Source of the DNA: Aliikangiella coralliicola | GTDB taxonomy: Bacteria; Pseudomonadota; Gammaproteobacteria; Enterobacterales; Kangiellaceae | Assembly (NCBI RefSeq): GCF_007004725.1 | Contig: NZ_ML660164.1 | Location: 371,501-435,500 of the forward strand | Direction: 5' to 3' | DNA length: 64,000 bases | Shown here: positions 56,487 through 59,717 of the stretch, piece after piece | Layout: each line of letters starts with the position of its first letter | Position numbering within the stretch: position 1 is the first letter of the stretch | Notes under the pieces: generated by a model | Told to the model about the DNA's origin: nothing | The model's database searches: none | What the model saw: the letters and a program-made list of their open reading frames with translations, nothing else | Program-made: the position numbers and the translations under genes

Positions 56487-56521
56487 GCACATTATCCGAT
56501 GAACAGATGTTGAGAGTTTTA

Positions 56522-58597
56522 ATGAGCTATCATGTGTTAGCCCGAAAGTGGCGTCCTGCTAACTTCAATGAATTAGTGGGTCAGCGACAAACATCGCAAG
56601 CACTGATTAACGCTCTTGAAAGCCAAAGGCTTCATCACGCGTATCTATTTACCGGGACTCGCGGGGTTGGTAAAACAACAATAGCGAGAATATTGGCTAA
56701 AAGTCTAAATTGCGAGAAAGGAATTACCTCGCAGCCTTGCGGTGAGTGTTCGAGTTGTGTAGAAATTTCTCAGGGCAATTTTGTTGATTTACTAGAAATT
56801 GACGCGGCATCCAAAACCAAAGTCGAAGACACTCGCGAGTTATTAGATAACGTCCAATACCGACCTACCCGTGGTCGTTATAAAGTTTACCTGATTGACG
56901 AAGTTCATATGCTAAGCGGGCACAGTTTTAACGCGTTGCTAAAGACACTTGAAGAGCCTCCGCCTCACGTTATTTTTCTTTTAGCGACCACAGATCCTCA
57001 GAAGATGCCGGTGACAGTTTTGTCACGTTGTTTACAATTCCATCTGCGCCGAATGGAGGAGCCGGAAATTGTGAATCATCTGAGCATGATATTAAAATCA
57101 GAAGACATTCGCTTTGAAGAAGGTGCGCTTGAGCCTATCGCTAAAGGGGCTGACGGAAGCATGCGAGATGCGCTTAGCTTATTAGATCAGGCGATCGCAT
57201 TTTGTGGCGAGCAACTTGATAAAAAAACCGTGCTGGATATGCTCGGAACGATTGATCGTGCCTATGCCGTTAAATTGTTGAACGCGATAAAGTCGAATGA
57301 TGTCACCGCTTTGATGGCGGCCATCGACGAAATTTCTGAGTATGCACCTGACTATGATGAATTATTGGCTGACTGGTTATCATTACTCCATCAGATTGCA
57401 GTGGTCCAGGCGACGGGGGTCTCTGACGACTCCCAAATAAATGCGATGGCTCAGGAAGTAACGCCGGCAGATTTGCAGTTATTTTATCAATTGTCATTAC
57501 ATGCTCGTAGAGATTTGCCTTTCGCGTCACATCCACGTCAGGGGTTTGAAATGGCGATGTTGCGAATTCTGGCTTTTAAACCGCAGACAAAACCAACCCT
57601 GCCTGGAGATAATAAAAAAAAAATTAATCAAACTGAGTTGAGTTCATCGCCAAATACAGTGAGAAAAGTTGAGCGGCCACAACCACAACAACCCTCTGTT
57701 GACAGACCTACTGTAGCGAGTGTGGAAAACAATGGGATTGATCAGCATGCAATTTCGAATAACCTTCAGCCATCAACTGAGGCTGGCAAAAACTCATTTG
57801 AATCGAACAATGAATCTGTCGCTAGAAAAATTTGGCAGCAAACTGAAGCTGATTCTGGCGTAGCTGAAAAAGAAGGAGAGTCATCACCTCCGTTACGTGT
57901 CATTGTTAACAATACCAGCAACACTGCCGATATTAGTAATAATGACCTCGGTAATGTTGGCGATAAAAATACGCTCAATGGCCGCTCGGAAGATTTATCG
58001 AGTAATAAAAATAAAGTATCTAATGAAGCTTCTAACACCGATATTTCTCAAGCCGGTGTTGTTCAATCTATTGATTCAGGTTCATTATCTAATCAGCTTT
58101 TAGAAGCCTCTGGCGAACCTCCTGGTCATCAGCCGAAAAGTGAGTTGGAAAAGCCTGAAACCATGGCGGAGCGAGCTGCGAGAAAAAATCTTGAATGGCT
58201 TTCGTTAGAAAAAGTTAATGCAGCTAACTGGTATAATGTAGTAGAAGCATTGACGCTGGAAGGGAATGGATTACAAGTATTGCTTAACTCGATCGCTGAG
58301 AACCAACAAGGTAAACTTGTTGTCAATTATCTTAGTAAGATGGAACCATTATTAACGAGCAATGCACTTAAGTTGATTCAAGCACAATTGAAAGAATATT
58401 TTGCTAACCAACAACTGATTATTGAATTAAATACGGTCAGCGAAACGAGTGAAAATCCGAGAGAACGGCAAACTCGACTACGTGAACTTGCGATTGATGA
58501 AGCTCAACAAAAGTTGTTATCTGATCCACAAATTAGTTATTTGATGGATACTCTCGGTGCGACGCTTCCGAGAGAGTCTATTTCACTAAAAAGCTAG
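56522..58597 (+). CDS. dnaX: DNA polymerase III subunits tau and gamma
   Basis: A 691-residue tau subunit of the clamp loader. MSYHVLARKWRP and the P-loop TRGVGKTT (near 45) open domain I; four zinc cysteines (about 64-79), the DEVHML Walker B and the SRC sensor follow. The AAA+ and domain III region ends near residue 360. At codons 365-367 an A10 run (57614-57623) with GGAG at 57605-57608 allows slippage: the -1 frame reads Asn and then TAA, giving a 368-residue gamma-like product. The C-terminal part is polar and low in complexity until about 530, then the polymerase-binding domain follows. The start at 56522 has GAGAG upstream; the ATG at 56507 is not needed. ybaB and recR follow. Confidence 0.95.
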   Translation: MSYHVLARKWRPANFNELVGQRQTSQALINALESQRLHHAYLFTGTRGVGKTTIARILAKSLNCEKGITSQPCGECSSCVEISQGNFVDLLEIDAASKTKVEDTRELLDNVQYRPTRGRYKVYLIDEVHMLSGHSFNALLKTLEEPPPHVIFLLATTDPQKMPVTVLSRCLQFHLRRMEEPEIVNHLSMILKSEDIRFEEGALEPIAKGADGSMRDALSLLDQAIAFCGEQLDKKTVLDMLGTIDRAYAVKLLNAIKSNDVTALMAAIDEISEYAPDYDELLADWLSLLHQIAVVQATGVSDDSQINAMAQEVTPADLQLFYQLSLHARRDLPFASHPRQGFEMAMLRILAFKPQTKPTLPGDNKKKINQTELSSSPNTVRKVERPQPQQPSVDRPTVASVENNGIDQHAISNNLQPSTEAGKNSFESNNESVARKIWQQTEADSGVAEKEGESSPPLRVIVNNTSNTADISNNDLGNVGDKNTLNGRSEDLSSNKNKVSNEASNTDISQAGVVQSIDSGSLSNQLLEASGEPPGHQPKSELEKPETMAERAARKNLEWLSLEKVNAANWYNVVEALTLEGNGLQVLLNSIAENQQGKLVVNYLSKMEPLLTSNALKLIQAQLKEYFANQQLIIELNTVSETSENPRERQTRLRELAIDEAQQKLLSDPQISYLMDTLGATLPRESISLKS
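57605..57631 (+). promoter_or_regulatory. Candidate dnaX frameshift or slippage site
   Basis: The A10 run at 57614-57623 lies in codons AAA AAA AAA ATT. GGAG five bases upstream could act as an internal Shine-Dalgarno that stimulates -1 shifting. The -1 frame ends within two codons and the +1 frame within six, so either shift makes a short subunit after domain III. Confidence 0.6.
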
Positions 58598-58762: not shown

Positions 58763-59083
58763 ATGAATAATCTTGGCGGCTTAATGAAACAAGCCCAACA
58801 AATGCAGGAAAAAATGCAAAAAGCGCAAGAAGATGTCGCTAGTCTTGAAGTGGTCGGCGAGTCAGGTGCTGGTTTGGTCAAAGTATCTATGACCGGTCGA
58901 CACGATGTGACTAAGATCGAAATCGATGATGGGTTATTATCTGATGAAAAAGAAATTTTGGAAGATCTGATTGCGGCGGCGGTCAATGATGCGGTAAGAA
59001 AGGTAGAGGCCGAAAGTAAAGAAAAAATGGCGTCAGTCACATCGGGAATGTCATTACCTCCTGGTTTTAAAATGCCTTTTTAG
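58763..59083 (+). CDS. ybaB: YbaB/EbfC family nucleoid-associated protein
   Basis: A 106-residue DNA-binding protein that forms a tweezer-like dimer. It matches the family from [18 protein letters not shown] to the C-terminal [12 protein letters not shown]. It lies between dnaX and recR, the standard gammaproteobacterial order, and may share their transcript. Confidence 0.95.
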
Positions 59084-59099
59084 TTTGGATTAAAAATTA

Positions 59100-59717
59100 A
59101 TGAGTGCAAAACCTTTACTTCACCAGCTCGTTGAATCATTACAGTGTTTACCTGGAGTTGGAAAAAAGTCAGCTCAACGTATGGCTTATCAACTTCTTGA
59201 ACGTAATCGAAACGGTGCTTTGCGTTTGGCCGATGTGTTACAAGAGTCGATGCGAAGCATCGGCAATTGTGAAATGTGTCGTGATTATACTGAAACGAGG
59301 TTGTGCACCATTTGTTCTAATGAGAAACGTGACGCGCAAATGTTGTGTATTGTTGAGTCTCCGGCGGATATTGCAGCGATTGAATCAACCGCTGGTTACT
59401 CTGGACGTTATTTCGTTTTGATGGGGAACTTATCGCCTTTAGATGGTATTGGACCTGACGAAATTGGTTTGACATCGCTGGCGCGGCTTGTTTCTGAACA
59501 ACAATGCCAGGAAGTTATTATTGCGACCTCTGCGACGGTAGAAGGGGAGGCGACCGCTCATTATATTAAAGCGATGCTCACTAATATTGATCGCGTAGAA
59601 GGGAGTGAACCAATCAGAGTCACTCGTTTGGCGCAAGGTGTTCCAATTGGTGGAGAGCTCGGTTATATTGACCAATCAACACTGTCGCTGTCACTGGCCA
59701 ATCGACAAGATATTTAA
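59100..59717 (+). CDS. recR: Recombination protein RecR
   Basis: A 205-residue protein of the RecFOR pathway, which loads RecA on gapped DNA. The helix-hairpin-helix (LPGVGKKSAQRMAY) is at the start; the C4 zinc finger (CEMC and CTIC) lies at about 57-71; the Toprim domain with IVESPADIAAIE follows. The gene follows ybaB by 16 bases. Confidence 0.96.
   Translation: MSAKPLLHQLVESLQCLPGVGKKSAQRMAYQLLERNRNGALRLADVLQESMRSIGNCEMCRDYTETRLCTICSNEKRDAQMLCIVESPADIAAIESTAGYSGRYFVLMGNLSPLDGIGPDEIGLTSLARLVSEQQCQEVIIATSATVEGEATAHYIKAMLTNIDRVEGSEPIRVTRLAQGVPIGGELGYIDQSTLSLSLANRQDI

Follow-up and report, generated by a model that had tools for sequence, protein, structure and literature searches.

A conserved A10 tract in dnaX of Aliikangiella coralliicola and its relatives is a probable site of programmed transcriptional slippage

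The window, as the term is used here, is the whole 64,000-nucleotide stretch of Aliikangiella coralliicola DNA that was analysed. Its forward strand carries dnaX, read as a tau frame of 691 codons at positions 56522..58597. The product scores above cut-off for NCBIfam model NF005942 and matches TIGR02397 (dnaX_nterm). The longest open reading frame begins somewhat earlier, at 56507, and would encode 696 amino acids, so that an alternative start is possible. Pfam domain III occupies residues 233-353 and tau domain V residues 566-687; the domain V match is weaker than those of domains I-III and is still significant. Downstream on the same strand, at 58763..59717, lie ybaB/ebfC and recR (TIGR00103 and TIGR00615, both above cut-off), the usual neighbours downstream of dnaX, which are given as context only.

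Shortly past domain III, an uninterrupted run of ten A occupies positions 57614..57623 of the forward strand. It starts at codon 365 of 691, covers codons 365-367 plus one base, and is read in the tau frame as AAA AAA AAA ATT AAT. The initial annotation, made from the letters of the window, described this run after domain III, a TAA directly behind it after a -1 shift, and stops in both alternative frames. All three are present as described: TAA stands at 57625..57627, 1 nt past the run, and the second stop, TGA, stands at 57639..57641, 15 nt past the run and just beyond the interval given in that annotation. The unshifted gene is predicted to encode tau, with 691 amino acids and 76.5 kDa. With one additional A, or after a ribosomal shift to -1, translation would run into the TAA and yield a predicted gamma of 368 amino acids (41.2 kDa) ending in KKKN. 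With one A fewer, or two more, it would run into the TGA and yield one of 372 amino acids (41.6 kDa) ending in KKKLIKLS.

The dnaX tract is the only run of nine or more A in the window, both strands counted; shuffled sequences average 9.3 nine-A matches. The 7.04-Mb genome contains three A10 matches on its two strands, the dnaX tract included. Neither of the other two lies clearly within a gene, and one falls in a doubtful open stretch of 117 codons. The first (positions 997-1006 of locus L205) is found about 80 nt before an opposite-strand gene labelled by eye as lysine/alanine-rich and histone-like; the second (positions 1025-1034 of L204, where it appears as T10) is found 55 nt past an open reading frame labelled, again by eye, as short-chain dehydrogenase-like.

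Conservation of the run in relatives had been proposed as a check on the annotation. The family surveyed bears the code f1 in the genome collection used; NCBI places the genera Aliikangiella and Kangiella in Pleioneaceae and Kangiellaceae. A dnaX match was obtained in all 40 family genomes searched, and the site is covered in 39, the match in genome G003 ending short. These 39 genes are related and do not count as independent trials. In 38 of them the dnaX linker carries a tract, A10 in 34 and A9 in four, with no other length represented, at a position 3 to 49 residues beyond the aligned end of domain III. No run of eight or more A occurs in domains I-III of any of the 39 genes. Because the tract is the sole A9+ run of the window, is one of only three A10 matches in the genome, and is kept in nearly the whole family, we do not regard it as a product of chance. 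The single family gene of the 39 to lack an A9 or A10 tract is that of Aliikangiella marina GYP-15 (G001; loci L027 and L062), whose linker is free of runs of six or more A to a distance of about 80 residues from domain III. The interruption in a close relative that the initial annotation had named as a refuting observation occurs this once, against 38 of 39 genes that keep the run, and by this sequence the slippage device would not be indispensable within the genus. One uncultured Kangiella (L048 from G031, the same as L064) has two A9 runs in a single dnaX linker, separated by about 24 codons.

The linker sequences around the tract differ widely between lineages. The tract itself starts in all three codon phases, with at least six phase changes on the tree, so that the run persists even though the peptide it encodes differs from gene to gene. 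These observations bear on the view that the run is a mere lysine-rich linker of an AT-rich gene, without a programmed product. Lysine codons in family dnaX genes are indeed mostly AAA (median 0.68), shuffling of synonymous codons within each gene yields A9+ in about one third of genes, and A. marina does without the run. The simple lysine-codon explanation was nonetheless rejected, since A9+ is observed in 32 of 33 intact tau genes against 12.2 expected from that shuffling. With the shifting phase and peptide, and with the paired stops and gamma-first genes described below, also speaking against it, we give a lysine linker very little credence. Scarcely credible at all is a phase-variation tract, on which replication slippage would toggle tau between cells. 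A homopolymer of this size has, in principle, the length required, and species do differ in their default frame, but length is held to 9-10 in 38 of 38 genes, frames agree inside close clades, and tau is essential in well-studied bacteria.

Stops follow the tract closely throughout the family. In all 38 tract-bearing genes exactly one frame enters the C-terminal part of tau, and the other two stop within 24 nt, a limit that is the largest value observed and was set after seeing the data. At random positions in the same linkers both stops are found this near in a mean of 9.2 of 38 genes, with a maximum of 19 in 20,000 draws. Collapsing near-copies to 25 lineages, with representatives chosen by hand, gives both stops in 25 of 25 against a null mean of 6.8 and a maximum of 17; as the lineages are themselves related, the p-values should not be read literally. 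Shorter runs (A5-A8) read in the same frames have both stops as near in 28 of 105 cases, a contrast that a lysine-rich linker would leave unexplained. Median distances, which are independent of the 24-nt limit, separate tract from shorter runs in the -1 frame (4 vs 13 nt) and in the +1 frame (8 vs 28 nt).

The template frame encodes tau in 32 of the 38 tract-bearing genes and gamma in six (L032, L061, L035, L045, L051 and L052). In the gamma-first genes frame 0 ends at the run, and reaching the tau frame takes a -1 shift in five and a +1 shift in L035 (genome G035), whose tract is A9. The default frame has changed at least three times on a quick tree in which 17 of 43 inner branches are weakly supported. 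Over the portion that matches, the C-terminal frames of these six genes are 47 to 62% identical to tau of relatives, with E at most 3e-33. The shifted tail of the pair L051/L052 has a dN/dS of 0.27, indicating purifying selection; dN/dS is measurable for this pair, synonymous sites of the other pairs being saturated or nearly so. Tau in the gamma-first species seems, from these reading frames, to depend on a shift at the run. As tau there is readable only by a shift, these genes supply the strongest indirect sign of real slipping at the tract.

The gamma-first genes would lose this value if they were sequencing errors or truly split genes, uninformative on slippage. Homopolymers are error-prone, and a single assembly underlies each of L035 and L045; the A9 of L035 could be a miscounted homopolymer, and a search for independent assemblies of G035 and G030 found none. 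Two TTG codons also stand shortly ahead of the end of the run in the C-terminal frame of L035. Apart from these TTGs, the C-terminal frames have their first start codons 77 to 435 nt beyond the run, and a split gene with its own C-terminal start was rejected, there being no other suitable start near the run. One gamma-first layout is common to two species (L051 and L052), the pair with the constrained shifted tail, and another is common to two further assemblies (L032 and L061), which are nearly identical in their shared part. Errors or splits are, on this evidence, a quite improbable account of the six genes. Outside the family, Thiolinea disciformis DSM 14473 (L140) has an A9 run with a frame-0 stop 4 nt later and a -1 frame open for 558 nt, again a gamma-first arrangement.

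A comparison set of 134 loci from outside the family consists of 78 named loci (80 less two family members) and 56 picked from a search of the order, the latter chosen among the matches listed, with some weak-match families left out. A run of nine or more A occurs in the dnaX region of nine of the 134, and in nine of nine both other frames are closed within 32 nt. At thirteen of the 134 an A_AAA_AAG is followed by a -1 stop no more than 5 nt away, and the median distance from these thirteen sites to the +1 stop is 37 nt (range 13 to 232), against 8 nt at the family tract. A near -1 stop is thus common to both kinds of site, and a near +1 stop marks the A9+ sites. In one further case, L190 (family f18, from a 1.2-Mb genome), frame 0 ends at GAA AAA AAG TCC TAA and the -1 frame is open for 320 nt, which is the reversed layout on A_AAA_AAG.

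In Escherichia coli, dnaX is subject to a -1 ribosomal frameshift at A_AAA_AAG, with an upstream Shine-Dalgarno (SD) sequence and a downstream stem-loop. The window resembles it in having a similar site after domain III, with a -1 stop directly behind and a gamma-like product; it differs in that its run is A10 followed by TT rather than A_AAA_AAG, the SD is not conserved, and another stop stands near in the +1 frame. Programmed -1 ribosomal frameshifting on an A_AAA_AAA within the run, in the E. coli manner, would yield the same gamma of 368 amino acids. A_AAA_AAA is itself slippery for ribosomes, the -1 stop lies 1 nt after the run in the window and at a median of 2.5 nt in the 38 genes, and at the two best outside matches of the order search (L142 and L143, both from f4, a family in the same order) a -1 stop follows A_AAA_AAG. 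A GGAG also stands upstream of the run in the window, at 57605..57608 of the forward strand. The initial annotation was right as to its presence, but a stimulatory role finds no support in relatives and the motif is probably incidental. Nor does it stand out within this dnaX gene, where a fraction of 0.077 of the segments compared pair as well with the anti-SD sequence. In the 14 nt upstream of the tract, anti-SD pairing in the family has a mean percentile of 0.44, with two of 38 sites at or below 0.05, and a conserved SD stimulator in the family was rejected, pairing being ordinary in the 38 sites; six A_AAA_AAG controls have percentiles of 0.021, 0.021, 0.005, 0.041, 0.196 and 0.155. Downstream folding is weak in the family, with a mean z of -0.46 and three of 38 sites below -2, but it does not discriminate, as the six A_AAA_AAG controls scatter too and do not separate from the family. 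The window itself, with z of 0.61 for the 60 nt after the run and 0.28 for the 121 nt around it, folds no better than shuffles. The lack of SD enrichment in the family, the near +1 stops in 38 of 38 genes, which -1 shifting would make superfluous, and the +1 shift that G035 requires for tau together make a purely ribosomal device unlikely.

The reading we prefer, with a probability of roughly 0.83, is programmed transcriptional slippage at the A10 tract, of the kind found in Thermus dnaX. RNA polymerase would add or drop As on the tract, giving a mixed pool of mRNA. Transcripts with 10 As, or with 10 plus or minus 3n, would be translated into tau, and the remaining transcripts would meet the TAA or the TGA just past the tract and give gamma, consisting of domains I-III and a short tail. 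Transcriptional slippage is the best reading because the site bears the same marks as the cases described for dnaX by Antonov 2013 (PMC3711429) and for Thermus (PMC1088944). The initial annotation had called this a programmed slippage site with a gamma-like product of about 368 residues, a proposal now well supported by conservation of the tract, the paired stops and the shift-dependent tau of relatives. It had left open whether the mechanism is ribosomal or transcriptional, and the evidence favours the latter. We infer that the shifting is the work of RNA polymerase and not chiefly of the ribosome; ribosomes slipping on A_AAA_AAA may contribute to some extent. On the strength of conservation, gamma would presumably be functional in the family, and it would be used in the clamp loader, and the ratio of tau to gamma products is likewise a predicted quantity.

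A broader reading, which we hold tentatively and at a little less than even odds, is that the tract occupies the place that an E. coli-type ribosomal signal has in f4, and that the default product has become nearly neutral, with three or more switches from tau to gamma, one of them into a state needing +1. Under transcriptional slippage the default could be near-neutral because slippage feeds all three frames, and the +1 state would be beyond what -1 ribosomal frameshifting can supply. The order in which f4 and the three f1 groups branch is not fixed by the tree, which hence gives no direction of change between the two devices.

Transcriptional slippage in dnaX of Thermus thermophilus was reported by Larsen 2000, as described in PMC1088944 and PMC5009743. 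There, according to Baranov 2005 (PMC1088944), the run is A9 and stops lie behind it when the count of As is off; the same paper reports that signs of selection against runs can be seen at nine nucleotides in a large share of genomes. Like that gene, the gene in the window has an uninterrupted A run, tau in the template frame and near stops in both other frames. Unlike it, the window has A10 in place of A9, belongs to a gammaproteobacterium and has some gamma-first relatives, and its slippage is predicted from sequence.

Antonov 2013 (PMC3711429) takes varied shift direction among orthologs as the mark of transcriptional realignment, and it describes 17 reversed dnaX genes, in two open reading frames, nine of them with A10 and all needing -1. 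The six gamma-first relatives are like these in that frame 0 ends at the run and a shift is required for tau. The window differs from the genes described there in being tau-first, and its family in holding both layouts, with at least three switches and one +1 gene. According to Atkins 2016 (PMC5009743), where efficiencies are nearly equal, a change of one nucleotide is enough to swap the roles.

Slippage-made gamma is thus already known from Thermus, and gamma-first dnaX with A10 from Antonov 2013 (PMC3711429). A search of the open literature found no paper joining dnaX, frameshift and Kangiella. As far as open papers show, the new element is a family-wide set that holds both layouts, with repeated switches and one possible +1 case. 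The 38 genes form a natural series on how a tract is retained and how the default of dnaX could be flipped without losing either subunit. In routine annotation a gamma-first dnaX may pass for a truncated or frameshifted gene. The series predicts bacteria in which tau would arise only through an error-like event.
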